Notes under the pieces: model-generated
What the model saw: the letters and a program-made list of their open reading frames with translations, nothing else
What the model was told of the DNA's origin: nothing
Databases searched by the model: none
Shown: one piece after another, positions 2,991 to 45,345 of the stretch
How the letters are laid out: every line of letters begins with the position of its first letter
Numbering within the stretch: position 1 is the first letter of the stretch
From: an uncultured Clostridia bacterium
Lineage (GTDB): Bacteria; Bacillota; Clostridia; TANB77; CAG-508
NCBI GenBank assembly: GCA_949482135.1
Contig: CASYFC010000002.1
Span: 124,001-188,000 of the forward strand
DNA: 64,000 nt
Reading direction: 5' to 3'
Program-made: the position numbers and the translations under genes

Positions 2991-5555
2991 ATGGGAAATA
3001 TTGTTCTCTTAGATGATTTAACAATTAATAAAATTGCAGCAGGAGAAGTTATAGAAAGACCTGCATCAGTTGTAAAAGAAATGGTAGAAAACTCTATAGA
3101 TGCTGGGGCAAAAAATATTACTGTTGAAATAAAAAATGGTGGTATTTCATTAATAAAAATTACAGATGATGGATGTGGAATTGCAGAAGACGATATGGAG
3201 ATTGCATTTGAACGTCATGCAACAAGTAAAATTAGAACAGCAGAGGATTTAACAACAGTTAAATCTATGGGGTTTAGAGGAGAGGCTTTAGCAAGTGTTG
3301 CTGCAATTTCTAAAATAGAAATGATTTCAAAAAAAGCAGATGAACAATTTGCACATAAAATTGTTGTTGAAGGTGGAAAAACCATAGAATTTACAGAAGC
3401 CGCTAGAAGTGTTGGAACAACAATAACAGTACAAAATTTATTTTATAATACACCAGTAAGATATAAATTCTTGAAAAAAGATTATACAGAAGCTGGATAT
3501 ATTGAAGATGCTGTTACAAGAATTGCTTTAGTAAATAAAGATATTTCTATAAAATTAATAAGCAACGGAAAAACTATAGTACAGACAAATGGAAACGGTG
3601 ATTTGAAAACTGTAATTTATAGTGTTTATGGAAAAGATATTGCAGCAGAAATAAATGAAATTGAATATGAATATGAAGGAATTAAAGTAACTGGAGTGGT
3701 AGGAAAACCAGTTATTGCAAGAGCTAATAGAAGTAATCAATTATTTTTCTTAAATGGAAGATATATAAAAGATAAAAATTTAACAGCCGCTGGTGATCAA
3801 GCATATAAAGGTATGATTCCAGTTGGTAGATATGGATTTCTTGTTTTAAATTTAGAAATGGATCCAAGTCTTGTCGATGTTAATGTTCATCCAGCAAAGC
3901 TTGAAGTTAGATTTGAGGAAGAATCAAAAGTATTTAAAGCTGTATATCATGCTATAAAATCTAGTCTAGCTCAATCAGAACTTGTAGAAAATATTGAAAG
4001 AGAGACATTAGAAGAAAAAAAATCAGATGAAAGTGAAAATACAAGTACAACTATAAATATATCTGAAAGTTCAGAAACATATAATAAAGAAAATTCTGAA
4101 ATATTGCAAGAGAATAATGAAGACAGAAATGAAGAAAAGAAAAAAGGTATTGCTGGGTTATTTTCTAAAATTATAAAAGAACCAGAAGAGACAGAAGAAG
4201 AATTAAGTAATAATCACCTAGAAGAAATATTTAAGTATAGACAAGCATTAAAAGAAAAAACAAATATAGAAAAAATTACTAATTTAGATAATATTAATAT
4301 AGATGAAAATAGCAGAAAGGCACAAGAATATATTAGTAAATATAAAGCCAATAAATCTAATGAAGATAATGCTGAATCTGTAATGTCTGATATTAATATT
4401 CAAGTAAATGAAAATATCGAAGAATCAAATATAATAAATGATGATGAAGTATCAAAAAAAGTTACTTTAGGAAATACAATAATATCTAGTGAAACAAAAG
4501 AATTAAATATAAATAATAGTAGTAGTGTAATAAAAGATTCAACAACAGTTATGAATTCTACTAAATTAGCTCAAAAAGAGCCAACTCAATCAGTAAATAT
4601 AAATGATGAGAATAAGGTTCTAGAAGAAAACAAAGAAGAAAACGGATATAAACAAGAAGTAGATCAAGTAGAAAAAAATACATCAGGAGAAGATTTTTCA
4701 AAAATAGCTCAGAAATTAATTGAATCAAAAATTAATTTTGATAATACACAAACTATCGATACTGCAAAAGTTAGAGAAGCAATAAAAGAGGAATATGAAA
4801 GTAATCCGGAATTTGACGAAATGTATAAAAAAACATTTGGGGTAGACCCATTTTCAGTTAGAAAAGAAAAAGAACAAGAGAAAAAAGACAAAGAAAAAAT
4901 TAATGTTTCAAATGAATTTGAGTATGCTGGAAATGAAGAAAATATGACTGTTTTTGAAGATAAAGCAGAATTTCCAGAAATACCATATAAGTTTATAGGA
5001 ATTGTATTTAACACATATATAGTTATTGAAATAAAAGATGAGATGTATATAATAGACCAACATGCTGCACATGAAAGAATATTATATGAAAAAGTAAAAA
5101 ATAATTATTATAATGATGGTGAAAAAGATGAACAAATGCTTTTGTTGCCAGATGTAATTTCATTAACACATAAAGAAATGTCTATAGCAAAAGAAAATAT
5201 AGATATGTTTGCAAGAGCTGGATTTTCTTTTGAAGAATTTGGGGATAACACAATAAAATTAATGTCAGTCCCTAGTATGTGCGAAGACATGAATACAAAA
5301 CAATTATTTTTAGATATATTAGATGAAATAGATACAGTTGCAGTTACAGCAAGACAAGAAAAAGAAGATAAATTTATAGCAACAGTTGCTTGTAAAGCAG
5401 CAGTAAAAGGAAAAATGAAATTGGATGAAAAAGAAGTAAAAGCTTTAATGAAAAAACTTTTGGATCTTCCAAATCCATTTACTTGCCCACATGGAAGACC
5501 AACGGCTATAAAAATGACAAATTATGATTTAGAAAGAAAATTTAGAAGGAGCTAA
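2991..5555 (+). CDS. mutL: DNA mismatch repair protein MutL
   Basis: This is the matchmaker and nicking endonuclease of mismatch repair. The GHKL ATPase domain occupies the first ~330 residues, with ENSIDAGA (N box), DDGCGI and GFRGEAL motifs. The C-terminal dimerisation/endonuclease domain carries DQHAAHERILYE near residue 690 and CPHGRP near 832, the metal-binding motifs of nicking-type MutL. At 854 residues it is about 200 longer than usual. The extra length is an acidic Asn/Glu/Lys-rich linker between about 335 and 640 with no clear fold. No mutS is visible upstream. miaA follows 4 bp after the stop, as in many Firmicutes. Confidence 0.97.
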   Translation: MGNIVLLDDLTINKIAAGEVIERPASVVKEMVENSIDAGAKNITVEIKNGGISLIKITDDGCGIAEDDMEIAFERHATSKIRTAEDLTTVKSMGFRGEALASVAAISKIEMISKKADEQFAHKIVVEGGKTIEFTEAARSVGTTITVQNLFYNTPVRYKFLKKDYTEAGYIEDAVTRIALVNKDISIKLISNGKTIVQTNGNGDLKTVIYSVYGKDIAAEINEIEYEYEGIKVTGVVGKPVIARANRSNQLFFLNGRYIKDKNLTAAGDQAYKGMIPVGRYGFLVLNLEMDPSLVDVNVHPAKLEVRFEEESKVFKAVYHAIKSSLAQSELVENIERETLEEKKSDESENTSTTINISESSETYNKENSEILQENNEDRNEEKKKGIAGLFSKIIKEPEETEEELSNNHLEEIFKYRQALKEKTNIEKITNLDNINIDENSRKAQEYISKYKANKSNEDNAESVMSDINIQVNENIEESNIINDDEVSKKVTLGNTIISSETKELNINNSSSVIKDSTTVMNSTKLAQKEPTQSVNINDENKVLEENKEENGYKQEVDQVEKNTSGEDFSKIAQKLIESKINFDNTQTIDTAKVREAIKEEYESNPEFDEMYKKTFGVDPFSVRKEKEQEKKDKEKINVSNEFEYAGNEENMTVFEDKAEFPEIPYKFIGIVFNTYIVIEIKDEMYIIDQHAAHERILYEKVKNNYYNDGEKDEQMLLLPDVISLTHKEMSIAKENIDMFARAGFSFEEFGDNTIKLMSVPSMCEDMNTKQLFLDILDEIDTVAVTARQEKEDKFIATVACKAAVKGKMKLDEKEVKALMKKLLDLPNPFTCPHGRPTAIKMTNYDLERKFRRS

Positions 5556-14156: not shown

Positions 14157-15809
14157 ATGAAAATTACTTTTTTAGGAGCTACAAGAACTGTAACTGGTTC
14201 AAACTTTTTAGTTGAAGCAGCAGGAAAAAAGTTTTTAGTAGATTGTGGTATGTATCAGGGGAAAATTACAGAAGAGTTAGAAAACTCAGATCCTTTTGCA
14301 TTTAATGTAAATGAGATTGACTTTATGTTATTAACTCATGCGCATATAGATCATTCTGGTAGAATTCCCAAACTATACAATGAAGGGTTTAGAGGAAAAA
14401 TTTATGCAACAAAGGCAACTTGTGATTTATGTGAAATAATGTTGCCAGATAGTGGTCATATTCAAGAGATTGAAATTGGATGGAAAAACAAGAAAAGAAT
14501 GAGAGAATGTTTAGATCCACTTCCACCACTATATACAGCAGAAGAAGCATATAAGTGTTTAGAAATATTTTCACCAGTTCAATATGATGATATTGTAGAA
14601 ATTGATGACAATATTAGTGTTAGATTTAATGATGCAGGACATATGTTAGGCTCAAGTATAATAGAAATATGGGCAACTGAAAATGGAAAAACAACAAAAG
14701 CTGTATTTACAGGAGATTTGGGTAACAACGATTTACCATTATTAGATTCCCCAACAATGATTAGTAATGCAGATTATTTAATAATGGAATCAACATATGG
14801 AAATAGATTGCATATAAGAAATGATGAAAAAGCAAAAATGTTTTTAGATATAGTTTCAGAAACTCTAGATAATGGAGGTAGAGTAATAATTCCATCTTTT
14901 GCAGTTGGAAGAACACAGGAGATATTATATGAACTAGACAAATTGAAAGATGATTTAGGAAAAAATGATCCTGAATTTGCAAGAAAATATGAAAAAATAA
15001 TGAATGTTCCTGTATATGTAGATAGTCCTCTTGCGATTTCTGCAACAGAAGTATTCAAGAAAAATACAGAATTATTTGAAGATGAAATTCAAGAAAAGAT
15101 AAGAAGAGGAGATAATCCATTAGAATTTTCAGGACTACAATTTACACAAACTGCTGATGAGTCAAAAGCTCTAAATGAAGACTTAAGACCAGCAATTATA
15201 TTATCTGCAAGCGGTATGTGCGATGTTGGTAGAATTAAACATCATCTAAAACATAATTTATGGAATCCAAATAGTACGATTTTATTTGTTGGATATCAAG
15301 CGCCAGGTACGCTAGGAAGAAGTATAGTTGAGGGTGCAGAAAAAGTTAAAATATTTGGGGAAGAAATTGCAGTAAATGCAAGAATTGAATATATTGAAGG
15401 ATACTCTGGTCATGCAGACCAAACTTGGCTTTTAAATTTTGTATATTCATTTACAAATCCTCCAAAACATATTTTCCTAGTTCATGGAGAACCTACTGGT
15501 CAAGATGTATTAAAACAAAAGATTGAGGAAACTTCAGAATGTGCAGTAACTATTCCAGAATTTGGAGAAACATATGATTTAGTAGGAAATGAACCAGTGT
15601 TATTATCAGAGACAAAAGAAGTAATAGAATACAAGAAAGAATTTAAACGTTTAGATTTAATAGAAAGAATTGAAAGTTTGAAAGAAGATATTTCTGATTT
15701 TGAAAATGTAATAATGATGAAGAAAATAGAAACTAAAGATGGTGATTTAAAATCTTTAGAAGATAGAGTAAAAGAAATACAAAAACAAATTCAAAATCTA
15801 ATAAAATAG
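14157..15809 (+). CDS. Metallo-beta-lactamase/beta-CASP RNase family protein
   Basis: 550 residues. The MBL fold starts at MKITFLGATRTVTGSNFLVE and carries the zinc motif THAHIDHSGRIP near residue 60 and FTGDLG near 185. The beta-CASP insert includes IIPSFAVGRTQEILYEL and SASGMCDVGRIKHHL, and the late His motif EGYSGHADQTWLL follows near 417. This set is typical of the YSH1/CPSF-like MBL exo/endoribonucleases of bacteria, which process or degrade RNA. A C-terminal coiled-coil tail of about 70 residues is extra to the catalytic core. Confidence 0.9.
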   Translation: MKITFLGATRTVTGSNFLVEAAGKKFLVDCGMYQGKITEELENSDPFAFNVNEIDFMLLTHAHIDHSGRIPKLYNEGFRGKIYATKATCDLCEIMLPDSGHIQEIEIGWKNKKRMRECLDPLPPLYTAEEAYKCLEIFSPVQYDDIVEIDDNISVRFNDAGHMLGSSIIEIWATENGKTTKAVFTGDLGNNDLPLLDSPTMISNADYLIMESTYGNRLHIRNDEKAKMFLDIVSETLDNGGRVIIPSFAVGRTQEILYELDKLKDDLGKNDPEFARKYEKIMNVPVYVDSPLAISATEVFKKNTELFEDEIQEKIRRGDNPLEFSGLQFTQTADESKALNEDLRPAIILSASGMCDVGRIKHHLKHNLWNPNSTILFVGYQAPGTLGRSIVEGAEKVKIFGEEIAVNARIEYIEGYSGHADQTWLLNFVYSFTNPPKHIFLVHGEPTGQDVLKQKIEETSECAVTIPEFGETYDLVGNEPVLLSETKEVIEYKKEFKRLDLIERIESLKEDISDFENVIMMKKIETKDGDLKSLEDRVKEIQKQIQNLIK

Positions 15810-30395: not shown

Positions 30396-30470
<75 letters not shown>

Positions 30471-30830: not shown

Positions 30831-32045
30831 CTATCTTGTTAAATCATTATTATCGTCTAATAGTTTATAATTTATTGTGTTTAATTCTCTTGCTTTATTA
30901 AATATATCGTTGCTTAAATAATAGTCGTTTAGTTTTTCCATTTCTTTTTCTTTATACTTATTCAAAACAGATGTGTAAGTATTTAATGTTACATTTATAT
31001 CTGTATGACCTAGTAATCTTTGAAGTGCAACAGCTCTCATACCAGATTCAATACAACGAGTACCATAAGTATGTCTTAATGTGTGTGTAGAAATAGGGTG
31101 TGTAATATTAACCTTTTTAGCAATGCTTTTGAGTTGGTTGTTAATAGTAGAGTGTAAAACTAATTTTTTATTAGGTGTTAAAAATAGCATATTGTCTTTA
31201 TTATCTTTTGAAATTTCTAATTGTTCAAGAATATAAGGTAGTATAAAATCAGGTATTGGCAAATCTCTTTTTCCAGCATAAGTTTTAGTTGTTTTTCCTA
31301 TACATACTTTATCGTTTTTGTCTGTTGTGAGTGTTCTGCTTATTTTTAATATATTTCTATTAAAATCAAAATCACTAGCTTGTAATGCAAGTGTTTCGCC
31401 TACACGAAGTCCCATATATAATTGAATTAGAAATACATTTCTATATGGCACATTTTTTGTATCAACATTTAATAAATAATCAGTTAATCTTTGTTGTTCT
31501 TCAACTTCTAATGCACTACATATTTTATCTTCTTTTTTGCTTTTAGGTTTTATTGTTTCATACATAGGGTTTTCGTGTATGTAACCTTTGTTTAGAGCAT
31601 ATTCAAAAGCACTTTTAAATTGAAAATAGTTTTTTTGAATTGAGGAGTTGCTATAAATTTCAGTTAAAGAATTAAAATATGCTTGAAGTTCATCTGTTGT
31701 TATTTCATTTATATTTTTGTTTGCTAAATAAGATTTTTCAATTGTTCGTATAGTGTCCATAGTTCTTGCATAAGCTCTATCAGTAATTAAGTTAGAATCA
31801 ACTTTTTTCTGTAATAACATTTTGATAAGTTTAATTAGAGGAATACCGTTATTTTGAATAAATATAGCACTATTTTTTTGTAAATTTATGTCTTTTAAAA
31901 ATTCTTTTGCTAGTTTTTCTGTTGCAAATGATTTTCTTATTCTTTTTGGTTTGCCAGTAGTTAAGTCTTGTACAACATAAGAAGCTATCCAATTTTTTCT
32001 ATCTTTATTATAGAAAACACTACCTTGAGCTTGTTTAGTTGCCAT
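30831..32045 (-). CDS. int: Tyrosine integrase of element 1 (Tn916 Int-like)
   Basis: The start is placed at ATG 32045, 7 nt after AGGAGG, giving 404 residues from MATKQAQGSVFYNKDRKNW. There is an N-terminal arm-binding domain (about 5-55), a SAM-like core-binding domain (about 60-165), and a catalytic domain with Arg in GLRVGETLALQ, HTLRHTYGTR, LLGHTDINVT and the Tyr nucleophile in LNTYTSVL. It inserts and excises the element at the tRNA-Gly core. It is closely similar to the integrase at 39723 in the catalytic half, consistent with the shared core site. Confidence 0.95.
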   Translation of the reverse strand: MATKQAQGSVFYNKDRKNWIASYVVQDLTTGKPKRIRKSFATEKLAKEFLKDINLQKNSAIFIQNNGIPLIKLIKMLLQKKVDSNLITDRAYARTMDTIRTIEKSYLANKNINEITTDELQAYFNSLTEIYSNSSIQKNYFQFKSAFEYALNKGYIHENPMYETIKPKSKKEDKICSALEVEEQQRLTDYLLNVDTKNVPYRNVFLIQLYMGLRVGETLALQASDFDFNRNILKISRTLTTDKNDKVCIGKTTKTYAGKRDLPIPDFILPYILEQLEISKDNKDNMLFLTPNKKLVLHSTINNQLKSIAKKVNITHPISTHTLRHTYGTRCIESGMRAVALQRLLGHTDINVTLNTYTSVLNKYKEKEMEKLNDYYLSNDIFNKARELNTINYKLLDDNNDLTR

Positions 32046-32056
32046 AAGCATACCTC

Positions 32057-32317
32057 CTAAACTCTTCTTTGCATTTTCCATATAGTATAAGCAATAAGTG
32101 TTATGTGCCAAGACTGACCTAAATTTACAGAGGGAAAATCATTTCTTTTAAAAATTTTATAACTAGCATTTTTACCTATATTCAAATCTTTTGCTACATC
32201 TTTTACAGTTAAGATAGTAAATGGATTTTCTAATTTATCTATTGCAACTTTTGCAAGTATTTCTTCAAATGATAGGTTTTCTTTTGTATCAATTATATTA
32301 TTATCTAGTTCGTTCAT
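32057..32317 (-). CDS. xis: Excisionase-like helix-turn-helix protein (Xis)
   Basis: 86 residues with a winged-helix/MerR-like excisionase segment (FTILTVKDVAKDLNIGKNASYKIFKRNDFP and following), preceded by an acidic N-terminus. It sits directly upstream of the integrase, 11 bp away, and overlaps the relaxase reading frame by 17 bp. It likely directs the integrase towards excision. Element 2 has no equivalent. Confidence 0.82.
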   Translation of the reverse strand: MNELDNNIIDTKENLSFEEILAKVAIDKLENPFTILTVKDVAKDLNIGKNASYKIFKRNDFPSVNLGQSWHITLIAYTIWKMQRRV

Positions 32318-34660: not shown

Positions 34661-34702
34661 GAATATAATAATATAGATACTTTTATGTATCTTGTCCAAA
34701 TC

Positions 34703-34806
34703 AAATGTTAACCGCAACCCTATTTGCGGAATATAAATGCATAGGTGTACAAATGTTACTCGGAGCCCTACCTCCGACAAATAAATGCGTAGGTGGACAA
34801 ATGTAT
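34703..34806 (+). ncRNA. Type III antitoxin RNA (CptI/ToxI-like), two 48-nt pseudoknot repeats
   Basis: Two full 48-nt units start with AAATGTTA at 34703 and 34751, followed by AAATGT of a third. Each unit has a 6-bp stem (CCGCAA/TTGCGG in unit 1, TCGGAG/CTCCGA in unit 2). The loop, CCCTAT or CCCTAC, is complementary to a downstream ATAGG or GTAGG, an H-type pseudoknot. The pairing covaries between units and with the copy in element 2. This is the architecture of type III antitoxins, which are cut by and inhibit the toxin. A terminator and a toxin gene follow. Confidence 0.88.
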
Positions 34807-34856: not shown

Positions 34857-35333
34857 ATGAAAGTAGAAAACGGAAAATTTTATTTTATAAAAGATACTTT
34901 TTTTGAAATATTTAAAGGCTATAAACTAATGGAAAATAAAGAAAATGGAAATAAAAGACCTTGCTATTTTTGTTTTAGTGACCCAGAAAATCAAAAAATA
35001 ATATGGTTTGTTCCTATATCAAGTAAAGTAGATAAGTATAAAATTATATATGAAAATAAGAAAAAGAAACAAAAGAAAGTTTATAACTTTGTTTTTGGTA
35101 AAGTTTTAGGAAAAGAGAAAACATTTTTAATACAAAATATTTTTCCTACTACTGAAAAATATATAGAAAGCAAATACCAAAATAAAATGCAAGATGTTGA
35201 AATTACAGAAAGTTTGAAAAAAGAAATAATTGAAACTTCTATGAATGTTATAAAACTAGCCAAAAAAGGAATAAACATACCTTTTTATGATATTTTAGAA
35301 ATGAAAGAAATTTTACTTAATTCAAATAAGTAA
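34857..35333 (+). CDS. Type III toxin, CptN/ToxN-like endoribonuclease
   Basis: 158 residues with segments of the CptN/TenpN/ToxN superfamily: KFYFIKDTFFEIF at the start, RPCYFCF near residue 36, IWFVPISSKVDKYKIIYE near 50, and FGKVLGKEKTFLIQNIFPTT near 82. These toxins are RNases that process their own repeat RNA and cleave host mRNA when freed. The GAGGT ribosome site is 4 nt from the ATG, 18 bp after the terminator hairpin. It should act in element maintenance and/or abortive phage defence. The CptIN assignment rests on recognition of segments plus context. Confidence 0.87.
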   Translation: MKVENGKFYFIKDTFFEIFKGYKLMENKENGNKRPCYFCFSDPENQKIIWFVPISSKVDKYKIIYENKKKKQKKVYNFVFGKVLGKEKTFLIQNIFPTTEKYIESKYQNKMQDVEITESLKKEIIETSMNVIKLAKKGINIPFYDILEMKEILLNSNK

Positions 35334-37246: not shown

Positions 37247-37258
37247 TACCCGCTCCAA
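37247..37258. repeat. att core, middle (junction of elements 1 and 2)
   Basis: TACCCGCTCCAA, identical to 30459 and 45334, lies at the junction with no chromosomal gene between the elements. Confidence 0.9.
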
Positions 37259-39722: not shown

Positions 39723-40949
39723 TTATCTTAGGTATGAAGCATCATCTTCACGAGAGGTATTATCTGCTAATTGGAATTGTGAACTTGTATTTAAAATATT
39801 ATTATTTATAAAGTATTCATTTACTTTTTCCATTTCTTCCATTTTATATTTGTTGAAAATAGAAGTATAGGTATTTAGAGTAATACTAATATCAGTATGT
39901 CCCATTAATCTTTGAAGTGCAACAGCCCTCATACCAGATTCAATACAACGAGTTCCATAAGTATGCCTTAATATATGTGTTGAAATTGGAGATTCAATAT
40001 TAAGTTTTTTTGCAATATTTTTAAGTTGTCTGTTAATTGTTGAGTGATGAACAAGATGTCCTTCGGGAGTTGCAAATAATAAGTTATTTTTCTGCTCTTT
40101 TGCAATTTCAATTTGTTCTATTATAAGATTTCTTAAGAAGTCTGGAATAGGCAATTCACGTTGACCAGCATAGGTTTTTGTAGTTTTACCAATACATACT
40201 TTGTCATCAATATCTGTTGTTAGAGTTTTATCAACAGAAAGAATACCTCTTTGAAGATTTATATCTCCAATTTGTAATGCTAAAGCTTCTCCAACACGAA
40301 GCCCCATATATAATTCAATTAATAAACAATTTTTATAAGGCATTTCACTTGGAGATTTTGAAACAAGATAATCAGTTAATATTTTTTGCTCATCTACTTG
40401 TAGAGCTTCAAAAACTTTATCAGGCTTTTTACTTTTGGGTTTTATAACATCAACCATAGGATTTTCGTGTATGTAACCTTTATTAAGTGAATGTAGAAAA
40501 GCATTTTTTATTTGAAAATAAACTTTTTCCAATGAAGAGTTACTATAAGATTCTGTTAAAGTATTTAAGTAGTTTTGTATTTCATCACTAGTAATTTCAT
40601 TTATTTTCTTTTTAGATAAATAGCATTTATTAATAATTCTAATAGTGTCCATTGTTCGAGCATAACATCTGTCTGTAATTAAGTTAGAGTCATATTTCTT
40701 TTGTAGTAAAAATTCAATTAATTTTCCAAGAGTAATACCTTTATTTTCTATATAAGCTTTTGAATTTTTTTGTAAATAATATTCAGATAAGTATTCTTCA
40801 GCTTTTTCTTTTGTTTTAAAAGATTTTCTAAATCTTTTCTTATCACCAGTTATGGAATTTGTTTCGTAATATTCATAAATCCAATTATCTCTTTGTTTGT
40901 TATAATAAATTGAACCAAAAGTATTATTATTTTTCATAAATTTCACCAT
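39723..40949 (-). CDS. int: Tyrosine integrase of element 2 (Tn916 Int-like)
   Basis: 408 residues with the same three-domain plan as the element 1 integrase and the catalytic segments GLRVGEALALQ, HILRHTYGTR, LMGHTDISIT and Tyr in LNTYTSIF. The catalytic halves of the two integrases are near identical over long stretches (GTRCIESGMRAVALQRL), matching their common core site. The N-terminal arm-binding parts differ more, matching their different arm sites. The start at ATG 40949 has AAAGG 5 nt upstream; the ATG 12 nt further in is an alternative. Confidence 0.95.
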   Translation of the reverse strand: MVKFMKNNNTFGSIYYNKQRDNWIYEYYETNSITGDKKRFRKSFKTKEKAEEYLSEYYLQKNSKAYIENKGITLGKLIEFLLQKKYDSNLITDRCYARTMDTIRIINKCYLSKKKINEITSDEIQNYLNTLTESYSNSSLEKVYFQIKNAFLHSLNKGYIHENPMVDVIKPKSKKPDKVFEALQVDEQKILTDYLVSKSPSEMPYKNCLLIELYMGLRVGEALALQIGDINLQRGILSVDKTLTTDIDDKVCIGKTTKTYAGQRELPIPDFLRNLIIEQIEIAKEQKNNLLFATPEGHLVHHSTINRQLKNIAKKLNIESPISTHILRHTYGTRCIESGMRAVALQRLMGHTDISITLNTYTSIFNKYKMEEMEKVNEYFINNNILNTSSQFQLADNTSREDDASYLR

Positions 40950-42918: not shown

Positions 42919-43824
42919 ATGTCAAATAAAGAAATGTCTAATACATTAGAAAAAGTAATAAACTATATAGAAAGCAAAATTAAAAATGAAGAAATTATAA
43001 GTAATAAGAATATTGCTCAATATATAGGTTATGATGAACAATACTTATCTAAAAAATTTAGAGATACTTTTGGTATGACAATACAAAAATACATTACTAA
43101 AAGGAAAATGGATTTTGCATCAAGAGATTTGCTAAAAACAAGTGATTTAGTTAGGACAATAGCTTCCAAATATGGATACAGTGAAGATGGTTTTATTAAA
43201 GCTTTTACGAAATTTAATAAAATTACGCCAAAACAATTTCGAAAAAATGGAGTAATGCGAAATGAATTTGGTAGAGTAATAACTTATGATGATTATGAAA
43301 AAGAATTAACAGATTTTTTTAGATTTGAGTCATATGAAATAAGAGAAAAAAATGAAATAAAACTTATTGGATTAATTGAAAATTCAGAATTTATGAATAC
43401 TAATTTTTATATGGAATGTATGTATTTTTTAGAAGGTAAATTGAAAGAAGAATTAGGAGAATGTATAAGTGATAACTTTGTTGAATTAAAACAATTTCAA
43501 GAAAATCATTTTGAATATATGCTAGCAACTATATATAATGAATTTGATGAATATTCAAATTCATTAAAAATAAAAATATTACCAAAACAAAAATGGTTGA
43601 TAATTAAAGGAAAAAGCTTTTCCAAAAAAGAAGCTATTGAGTATTCAACTTCTTATGGTATTAATAAAATATTGCCAAATTTAAAAGAATATAAAGAAAA
43701 CTTAAATAGTTACACTATAGCTTTTGACAGATATAATTTTATAGAATATTCTGAAGAATTAACTGAAGAACCAATAAAATTAAATGTAGGAGTTGAAGTA
43801 TGGATACCTATAATAGAAAAATAA
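42919..43824 (+). CDS. AraC-family regulator with GyrI-like effector domain
   Basis: 301 residues. The N-terminal AraC helix-turn-helix pair covers about residues 10-112 (IAQYIGYDEQYLSKKFRDTF and GYSEDGFIKAFTKFNKITP). The C-terminal half is a GyrI/SOUL-type ligand-binding domain (FFRFESYEIREKNEIKLIGL, then IKLNVGVEVWIPI). Proteins of this kind sense small molecules or drugs, like Rob/BmrR types. The ribosome site is GGAAAGGAG. It heads a probable three-gene operon; its last 25 nt overlap the next gene. Confidence 0.88.
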   Translation: MSNKEMSNTLEKVINYIESKIKNEEIISNKNIAQYIGYDEQYLSKKFRDTFGMTIQKYITKRKMDFASRDLLKTSDLVRTIASKYGYSEDGFIKAFTKFNKITPKQFRKNGVMRNEFGRVITYDDYEKELTDFFRFESYEIREKNEIKLIGLIENSEFMNTNFYMECMYFLEGKLKEELGECISDNFVELKQFQENHFEYMLATIYNEFDEYSNSLKIKILPKQKWLIIKGKSFSKKEAIEYSTSYGINKILPNLKEYKENLNSYTIAFDRYNFIEYSEELTEEPIKLNVGVEVWIPIIEK

Positions 43825-44258
43825 TTAATTCAAATTCTATAACAATGTCTGAATTAGGAATGTTGTTTTTAGAATCAAAGTATAAAAATATTTCTATGAT
43901 AAGTTATGGAACATATCAAAATAGGATTCGAATAATTAATGAATACTTTGGAGATGTAAAATTAAATAGTATCACGGAATGTAATATAAAAGAATTTGAA
44001 TATTATTTAATTGAGAAGAAAGAATGGAAATATATAAAAAAACCAAGCAATTATTCTGTAAAAATGATAATAAATACTTTACGAGAAGAATTAAATAAAG
44101 CAATTAGTTGGAACTTAATAAAAGAAATTCCTCAAAATAAAAATACTAATATAGTATTTACGAAAGATGAATCTCAAATAAAAAATATTAATGAGCTACT
44201 AATAGAATTAGAACAAAAAAGAGTTTTAGATAAAATTGAAAGTATATTTAAGTTGTGA
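43800..44258 (+). CDS. Integrase-like core-binding-domain protein lacking the catalytic domain
   Basis: 152 residues from ATG 43800, which has AGGAG 7 nt upstream inside the regulator gene. The sequence LGMLFLESKYKNISMISYGT then RIRIINEYFGDVKLNSITE and FEYYLIEKKEW matches the SAM-like core-binding domain of tyrosine recombinases. It stops before any Arg-His-Arg-Tyr catalytic residues. It is either a decayed recombinase or a DNA-binding accessory factor; preserved start signals and translational overlap favour a functional protein. Confidence 0.65.
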   Translation: MDTYNRKIINSNSITMSELGMLFLESKYKNISMISYGTYQNRIRIINEYFGDVKLNSITECNIKEFEYYLIEKKEWKYIKKPSNYSVKMIINTLREELNKAISWNLIKEIPQNKNTNIVFTKDESQIKNINELLIELEQKRVLDKIESIFKL

Positions 44259-44544: not shown

Positions 44545-44562
44545 TTGAATATTTAAAATTAT

Positions 44563-44591
44563 TTGACATATAATAAAAAATAAGCTATAAT
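44563..44591 (+). promoter_or_regulatory. Promoter of the type I antitoxin RNA
   Basis: TTGACA at 44563 and TATAAT at 44586: perfect consensus with a 17-bp spacer and no ORF downstream on this strand. Confidence 0.88.
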
Positions 44592-44597
44592 ATATAT

Positions 44598-44671
44598 AGC
44601 TTAAGCAAGAGAATAAATCAAAAGAACTTAAGTGTTCACAGAGATATGTTGACCGCATATCTCATTTTTTT
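44598..44671 (+). ncRNA. Type I antitoxin RNA (par RNA II-like)
   Basis: A predicted transcript of about 74 nt ends in a terminator hairpin GAGATATG-TTGACCG-CATATCTC (44641-44663) with a T tract. Two parts are complementary to the convergently transcribed toxin mRNA. TAAATCAAAAGAACT and TGTTCAC at 44614-44639 match the complement of the toxin ribosome-site/start region (44791-44817). The loop TTGACC is complementary to GGTCAA in the loop of the toxin terminator. This is the two-contact logic of the par (Fst/RNA II) locus of pAD1. Confidence 0.78.
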
Positions 44672-44680
44672 GTAAAAAAT

Positions 44681-44705
44681 AAAGGCAGTTGACCAGACTG
44701 CCTTT
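44681..44705 (-). terminator. Terminator of the type I toxin mRNA
   Basis: AAAGGCAGT and ACTGCCTTT form a 9-bp stem; on the minus strand the hairpin is followed by ATTTTTT. Its 7-nt loop, with the closing pair, contains GGTCAA, complementary to the antitoxin loop. Confidence 0.88.
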
Positions 44706-44718
44706 GATTAGTTTTGCA

Positions 44719-44808
44719 CTAATCTTGAGAATTTTGGTTTTCATCATCTTTACTATTACTTAATAATAATAATATGATTAATCTCCAAATTAAATCAAAA
44801 GAACTCAA
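44719..44808 (-). CDS. Small hydrophobic type I toxin peptide (29 aa, Fst-like plan)
   Basis: The ORF starts at TTG 44808, 8 nt after AGGAGG, and ends at TAG 44719. The 29-residue peptide has a short hydrophobic helix (FDLIWRLIILLLL) and a charged tail (SNSKDDENQNSQD), the plan of Fst/Ldr-type membrane toxins, though the sequence is not a clear match to a named one. It has its own promoter and terminator. A convergent RNA is complementary to its ribosome site, which strongly supports a type I toxin. Confidence 0.75.
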   Translation of the reverse strand: MSSFDLIWRLIILLLLSNSKDDENQNSQD

Positions 44809-44904: not shown

Positions 44905-44915
44905 TTACCCAACAA
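44905..44915. promoter_or_regulatory. Candidate integrase arm-type site, element 2 inner right copy
   Basis: TTACCCAACAA followed by AAA and about 25 bp later ACTATGTTTTTG. The same pattern is repeated at 45284-45331, next to the true att core. Confidence 0.55.
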
Positions 44916-45025
44916 AATGATAAAAAACATTGATAAATGTACTATGTTTTTGGTAAAATAATCGGAAGTAAAAATATTGTAAAAAAATATGTGTTTAGAA
45001 ATGAAAATAAAAATAGATTATTGTA

Positions 45026-45055
45026 TTGACTAAATTTATATAAGTGTATTAATAT
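45026..45055 (+). promoter_or_regulatory. Promoter of the orphan type III antitoxin RNA
   Basis: TTGACT at 45026 and TAATAT at 45050 with an 18-bp spacer, the same spacing as in the element 1 locus. Confidence 0.6.
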
Positions 45056-45071
45056 ATAGTTAGTCCAATAA

Positions 45072-45213
45072 AAATGTTAACCGCAACCCTATTTGCGAAA
45101 TATAAATGTATAGGTGAAAAAATGTTACTCGCAAACCCACTTGCGACAAATAAATGCGTGGGTGGACAAATGAAAAATCTCATTTAGTGTTATCTAGCAT
45201 TATTTGAGATTTT
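45072..45213 (+). ncRNA. Orphan type III antitoxin RNA (CptI-like), no toxin gene
   Basis: Two 48-nt units start with AAATGTTA at 45072 and 45120. Unit 1 is nearly identical to unit 1 of element 1. Unit 2 keeps the fold with changed bases: stem TCGCAA/TTGCGA and loop ACCCAC pairing with a downstream GTGGGT, against TCGGAG/CTCCGA and CCTAC/GTAGG in element 1. The terminator AAAATCTCA/TGAGATTTT (45174-45213) follows. No toxin ORF lies between here and the element end at 45345. Confidence 0.82.
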
Positions 45214-45283
45214 TTGTTTTAATTTCAAATTATTTAACATTATTGATTAGTATTTTTAGAAAATAACTATTATTGCCAACACT

Positions 45284-45294
45284 TTACCCAACAA
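45284..45294. promoter_or_regulatory. Candidate integrase arm-type site, element 2 right end
   Basis: TTACCCAACAA, 40 bp from the right att core. Confidence 0.6.
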
Positions 45295-45333
45295 AACACT
45301 AAAAAGATTTGATATATCAACTATGTTTTTGAA

Positions 45334-45345
45334 TACCCGCTCCAA
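45334..45345. repeat. att core, right (attR of element 2)
   Basis: TACCCGCTCCAA followed by AAAAGGTGTTTTAGCCTTTA and a T tract, evidently the displaced original terminator of the target tRNA-Gly gene. Confidence 0.9.

Follow-up and report, generated by a model that had tools for sequence, protein, structure and literature searches.

The window analysed here is a stretch of 64,000 nucleotides (contig CASYFC010000002.1) from the 2.0-Mb draft genome of an uncultured Clostridia bacterium of the gut, in which two elements lie in tandem at tRNA-Gly(tcc). An exact attachment (att) core, ACCCGCTCCAA, occurs at 30460, 37248 and 45335. Element 1 carries a complete CptIN type III toxin–antitoxin locus; near its right end, element 2 holds a stand-alone CptI antitoxin RNA array without a toxin (Table 1). 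A preliminary description had placed such a two-repeat RNA at 45072..45213, and this is confirmed: two units and a hairpin are present, and no CptN is found up to the att core, ~115 bp behind that hairpin.

Table 1 Features of the two tandem elements and of the orphan array, in window coordinates
Feature	Position	Strand	Evidence
tRNA-Gly(tcc), integration target, att core 30460–30470	30396..30469	+	
Tyrosine integrase of element 1	30831..32111	-	PF00589
CptI array of element 1 (complete CptIN), then terminator hairpin	34702..34803	+	
CptN toxin of element 1	34857..35333	+	NCBIfam NF047359, 166.1 bits (cut-off 90); CptN 4RMO, E 5.1e-20
att core between element 1 and element 2	37248..37258	+	
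Tyrosine integrase of element 2	39723..40949	-	PF00589
Candidate promoter of orphan array, TTGACT-18-TAATAT	45026..45055	+	9/12 consensus matches, weak against background
CptI unit a, pseudoknot	45071..45118	+	Pattern; covariance model R1, 79.5 bits; 10/10 pairs
CptI unit b, pseudoknot, S2 pair U-A to C-G compensated	45119..45166	+	Pattern; 10/10 pairs
Third copy of unit-boundary motif CAAATG, presumed 3′ processing site	45167..45172	+	Sequence
A+T-rich terminator-like hairpin 3′ of orphan array	45168..45219	+	-20.6 kcal/mol, z -7.1
att core, right end of element 2 (copy of tRNA-Gly 3′ end)	45335..45345	+	

Strict CptI units start at 45072 and 45120 in our pattern scan, a period of 48 nt that agrees with the tandem repeats of CptIN loci (~45–48 nt). 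The strict pattern matches four times in the window (0.00 expected), and the orphan region is 84% identical to the array of element 1 over 125 nt. The boundary motif AAATG is present three times (45071–45172); processing at the last copy is presumed from the CptIN system of Eubacterium rectale (PMC4627078). The preliminary description had also assigned a promoter and a terminator. A stable 3′ hairpin is indeed there, missed by the terminator scan probably because its stem is A+T-rich; the promoter is plausible only, its region holding eight promoter-like sites against 4.1 expected. Rfam, at the gathering score, matches no CptI family in the window, returning a T-box and two tRNAs.

Where cptN directly follows the array in CptIN loci, none follows here: a tblastn search of the next 900 nt yields no CptN, six frames of 45165–45345 show by eye neither CptN nor a remnant, and the nearest CptN lies 10 kb upstream. 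That protein, the toxin of element 1, is named by NCBIfam; Pfam and PADLOC give it no CptN name. The same genome has a second CptIN of a different type on another contig (C3), with a CptN that is 54% identical.

The fold was examined with 49 distinct 54-nt units, taken from the window and from a pattern scan of genome contigs that gave 78 loci, 76 of them in Clostridia or its subgroups (L numbers denote loci or contigs, G numbers genomes of the survey and T1–T6 CptI unit types). Matches in Bacteroidetes and Caldithrix (L013 and L020) were discarded as chance. Stem S1 occupies columns 11–16/23–28 and stem S2 columns 18–22/40–44; with a one-base loop L1 and a long A-rich L2, covariation and per-unit pairs both describe an H-type pseudoknot. 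Pseudoknot cells are paired in 95.0% of cases, against 85.9% in shuffled and 34.0–42.3% in slid controls, and 58 cells are double-changed, against 18.0 in the shuffles. Columns 18, 19, 43 and 44 were fixed by the scan pattern, which makes two S2 pairs uninformative for covariation; 21 of the 49 units lack the outermost S1 pair.

All ten core stem pairs form in each of the two orphan units. Four positions of unit b are changed relative to the commonest unit, and two of these changes together convert U20–A42 to C20–G42. Under an equal number of random changes, neither unit is broken with p = 0.036, or p = 0.0015 when a compensated pair is included. Measured against the commonest unit, however, this conversion falls on the orphan side and the S1 differences on that of element 1, and the changes alone are therefore no proof of selection after toxin loss. 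The preliminary description had read compensatory changes as selection on the fold; the pairs are kept and one is compensated, yet selection after loss of the toxin does not follow, as the change may predate that loss. Compensatory types are not exclusive to toxin-less arrays, U18–A44 being found also in the toxin-bearing L313.

Toxin-less arrays recur in related genomes, as emerged from a survey of the kind proposed in the preliminary description. Covariance model R1 was run on draft genomes, 53 from the genus (E 0.1) and 390 sampled from the larger family (E 0.01), and matched 10 and 113 of these, respectively. A CptN search of the same 390 genomes (E 0.001) gave a match in 122, 104 of them above the family cut-off. 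Among the matches listed are 102 CptI arrays: 58 have CptN within 400 nt, and at least 44, in 39 genomes, do not. Three of the 44 are cut by a contig end, eight have a CptN fragment within 1.5 kb (one of them weak, E 0.06) and 33, including the window array, show no trace.

The eight remnants bear on the main rival explanation for the window locus, a neutral relic: a recent deletion would have trimmed a full CptIN and joined its array to the right end of the element, leaving the units intact for lack of time. Loss of the toxin gene beside the repeats, which the preliminary description named as a refutation of its reading, does occur at these eight loci, where a decaying or internally deleted cptN accompanies largely intact units, but at the orphan locus there is no toxin trace. 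Its surroundings are compatible with a deletion: the right-end sequence next to the array is present in G014 without CptI, and a 48-nt end-like repeat (44905–44952 and 45284–45331, 81% identical) brackets the array, as though the orphan were the remaining end of a third tandem element, most of which is gone. Against this, the orphan differs by ~10% from the nearest toxin-bearing arrays, yet no core pair is broken and one is compensated. We regard a relic as less likely than the role favoured below, and the class of arrays described next, which looks constrained, also speaks against it.

Within 3 kb of 22 of the 32 no-trace arrays outside the window lies SpoIIID, a large serine recombinase or ORFX, the 66-aa protein of a PIN-type operon; the figure for toxin-bearing arrays is 13 of 44, the sequence stretches around the loci differing in length. 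Fourteen toxin-less arrays begin no more than 5 nt from the stop codon of ORFX and precede a terminator hairpin (11 plus L142, assigned by place, and L140 and L173, at contig ends, by sequence), and nine of the 14 have a large serine recombinase within 300 nt. At L150, ORFX is preceded by a gene for a PIN-domain protein (PF01850, 24.8 bits, just above the cut-off), and the array is followed by a terminator hairpin, the recombinase and the 3′ half of spoIIID (PF12116). At L141, L154, L160 and others, too, a split spoIIID and a large serine recombinase adjoin a PIN-domain gene and ORFX, and some such loci carry a CptI array at the ORFX stop codon.

ORFX itself gave 48 matches in 40 of the 390 genomes. 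The array is not always tied to it: a T1-like unit stands at the stop codon in 12 of the 30 loci read (decayed in L331 and L342), and there is none in the other 18. CptN, searched with two queries, matched none of the 30 downstream stretches, some of which are shorter than 700 nt. In seven array-less loci (L323, L327, L328, L329, L340, L349 and L351) a like hairpin lies directly behind ORFX; the ORFX arrays therefore look like an insert between stop codon and terminator, with neither promoter nor toxin. Conservation was compared over the 55 pairs of 11 ORFX-array loci. Where ORFX diverges by at least 0.20 (30 pairs), the median differences are 0.125 for the array, 0.30 for ORFX and 0.28 for the stretch behind, and in 27 of these pairs the array is the best conserved of the three.

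The same neighbourhoods bear on another role offered in the preliminary description, a decoy acting between integrative elements that compete for one tRNA-Gly site. Elements 1 and 2 do sit in tandem at a single tRNA-Gly, which speaks for this idea. It finds no support elsewhere: spoIIID lies within 3 kb of 18 of the 32 other toxin-less arrays, ARAGORN reports no tRNA gene in any of 39 fetched loci, and nothing links CptI to the choice of site. We consider it highly improbable. L138 was considered as a tRNA-adjacent array and rejected, as it is a T6+T1+T1 hetero-array at which ARAGORN finds no tRNA.

Some toxin-less arrays combine unit types. The CptN proteins in the analysis form 11 clusters, and the arrays of clusters 1–10 (one or two viewed for each) have a single unit type apiece, T5 being shared by two clusters; by eye, the T5 core is that of the published E. 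rectale unit (primer table of PMC4627078). A search with ten unit-type models located mixed arrays at five places, none with CptN downstream: T1-T1-T5 in G072, G083 and G205, T6-T1-T1 in G031, and T1-T1 with a weak T5 unit behind them (19.9 bits) in G240. The first three all lie behind ORFX in a shared context and are not independent. Mixed arrays thus make up 5 of 33 toxin-less loci against none of the 108 typed toxin-bearing loci (Fisher p 0.0005; 0.0026 without G240). The latter come from 116 distinct near-complete loci with duplicates removed by upstream sequence, and the toxin-bearing sets overlap partly between contig records and genomes.

The T5 model matched 14 arrays in 13 of the 390 genomes. 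Nine lie upstream of a CptN match (truncated in G068, and with two stops in one of those of G187); five have no CptN downstream, and four of these five are mixed. The fifth, in G273, is a single T5 unit (L170, 7437–7485, minus strand) that stands directly behind the stop codon of a gene that we take to encode an SNF2-type helicase, and the genome of L170 is absent from the list of those with a CptN match.

T5 patterns also match four viral contigs, among which the unit core is nearly unchanged. L355 carries a complete CptIN next to a gene for a tail tape-measure protein. One toxin-less unit lies directly behind tRNA-Asn in a tRNA gene cluster of L352 (150,785 bp; 14652–14702), and another before tRNA-Ser and tRNA-Trp in L354 (65,779 bp; 736–788); neither record, either of which may be a fragment, has a CptN match. 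The third, in L353 (5,347 bp; 4771–4823, minus strand), has promoter-like and terminator-like sequence by eye, on a contig with two recombinases, one recognised by a PHROGs match and the second by eye. These three units are possible phage RNA antitoxins.

What might the orphan do? We favour, at a probability of about 0.55, the reading that its RNA neutralises related CptN toxins in trans, as an anti-addiction or immunity device. The segment 45071–45219 would be transcribed on its own to give two CptI pseudoknot RNAs, its cptN lost or never present. Once the transcript is made, a CptN from this clade, that of element 1 acting in trans included, would cut it at the AAATG boundaries, then bind the released units and stay inactive, as in the E. 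rectale system. Cells could thereby tolerate the loss or arrival of CptN-bearing elements. RNAs of this kind are found in other elements and in phages as well. In the E. rectale system a single unit suffices to neutralise the toxin (PMC4627078). When 45 arrays were ranked by closeness to the orphan (ungapped; two loci without a toxin value), the top 11 belonged to toxins 82–100% identical to CptN of element 1, which makes cross-action on that toxin likely. Action against toxins in trans would also agree with the hetero-arrays and with the units carried by phages. Further points in favour are the unbroken and compensated pairs of the orphan, the frequency of toxin-less arrays and the conservation of arrays among the more divergent ORFX loci.

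Several observations weigh on the other side. Some arrays of toxins 83–87% identical to that of element 1 rank low, and CptI RNAs of three published systems were inactive on non-cognate toxins (35–44% identical; PMC4627078). The orphan promoter is weak. No-trace arrays pair less well (S1 93.0%, S2 90.2%; 33 arrays, 63 units) than toxin-bearing ones (99.6% and 98.2% in 45 arrays; 97.4% and 96.4% in 20 more, partly the same loci), and second units in some of them are visibly broken. In the 25 closer PIN–ORFX pairs, the array is most conserved in nine and not in 16; several arrays there differ more than the genes, so that arrays have probably been exchanged or have changed fast until reaching a ceiling. 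Toxin-less arrays seem to be under weaker selection than arrays with a toxin next to them, although in the ORFX class some selection seems to act. The T1, T2 and T3/T6 patterns gave no match in viral contigs, and blastn of the orphan array matched nothing in phages or plasmids. Nor was an ortholog of the array found among the sampled genomes at the thresholds used, genus matches to the region being other CptI arrays and pieces of the element.

Co-occurrence with CptN, raised in the preliminary description, gives a mixed picture and adds to these doubts. Among the matches listed, seven of the 39 genomes with a toxin-less array also hold a full array of the window type; any CptN match is present in 16 of the 39, against 106 of 351 others (p 0.20). 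For genomes with no-trace arrays the figures are 15 of 30 against 107 of 360 (p 0.025), falling to 12 of 27 (p 0.13) without the window genome (G000) and without G147 and G219, in which CptN lies directly upstream.

The last two genomes, in each of which a complete CptIN is followed, immediately after its toxin gene, by a further CptI array of a different subtype (L147 and L161), suggest a further possibility: the orphan may be a dosage helper, an extra source of antitoxin that damps the toxin of the neighbouring CptIN in element 1 and plays no part in conflict between elements. The orphan and element 1 arrays are alike and 10 kb apart, which speaks for this. However, 23 of the 39 genomes with a toxin-less array show no CptN match at all, albeit in incomplete drafts, and we judge a helper role improbable.

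The proposed neutralisation in trans could extend beyond this locus. More tentatively, and at somewhat less than even odds, stand-alone CptI RNAs may form an RNA-based immunity layer against CptN toxins, by which a host, an element or a phage could evade abortive infection or addiction to CptIN. Its carriers would be integrative elements, the 3′ untranslated region of the PIN-type operon beside spoIIID, and single units by phage tRNA genes; some arrays would have two specificities, and the window locus would be a simple member. If so, widespread and partly multi-specific toxin-less RNA antitoxins would show type III toxins to be driving an arms race among gut Clostridia. They could also be the reason why CptIN does not keep certain elements in place.

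To our knowledge, the toxin-less antitoxins described so far are mostly proteins, together with the pseudo-ToxI repeats of a single phage. Anti-addiction modules have type II examples, and skin-like elements reside in sporulation genes. Among the closest known systems is E. rectale CptIN (PDB 4RMO; PMC4627078), with which the orphan shares the repeat length, the unit-boundary motif, the hairpin behind the array and an H-type pseudoknot whose L1 is a single base and whose L2 is long and A-rich; it differs in having no cptN behind, and some other toxin-less arrays differ in mixing two specificities. Pseudo-ToxI of phage PhiTE, a phage counter-measure to a type III toxin, is likewise a toxin-less antitoxin-like repeat RNA on a mobile genome, but wild-type PhiTE has 1.5 repeats and no full RNA (PMC3475682), whereas the CptI units here are complete, two of them beside phage tRNA genes. 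As in anti-addiction modules (PMC12548467), an antitoxin is present without its toxin and could neutralise the toxin of an element in trans; there it is a protein, here an RNA. Several toxin-less arrays have a split spoIIID and a large serine recombinase next to them, which recalls skin-like elements in sporulation genes (PMC5595907), a context different from that of the window locus. The literature on toxin-less type III antitoxins, as represented by the PhiTE study and a type III review (PMC5086642), yielded no RNA anti-addiction case, and no natural toxin-less or mixed CptI array was found in a search that did not cover the family-defining survey of 2012.

Another toxin may perhaps stand behind a CptI array at L151 and L152, two toxin-less arrays 16 kb apart on one contig (G184:C7), as broken HipA-like genes (PF07804 below cut-off, PF13657) lie behind each of them. 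Upstream of the orphan array in the window, 43800–44258 is an integrase fragment whose only domain matches are SAM-like (PF13102, PF14659), probably a remnant. A candidate type I toxin–antitoxin pair occupies 44719–44808 (minus strand) and 44560–44690: the former encodes a 29-aa hydrophobic peptide with a TTG start behind GGAGG, and a convergent short transcript shares AAATCAAAAGAAC..GTTCAC with it. This region recurs in the genus, in G013 (86%), G034, G026 and G047.
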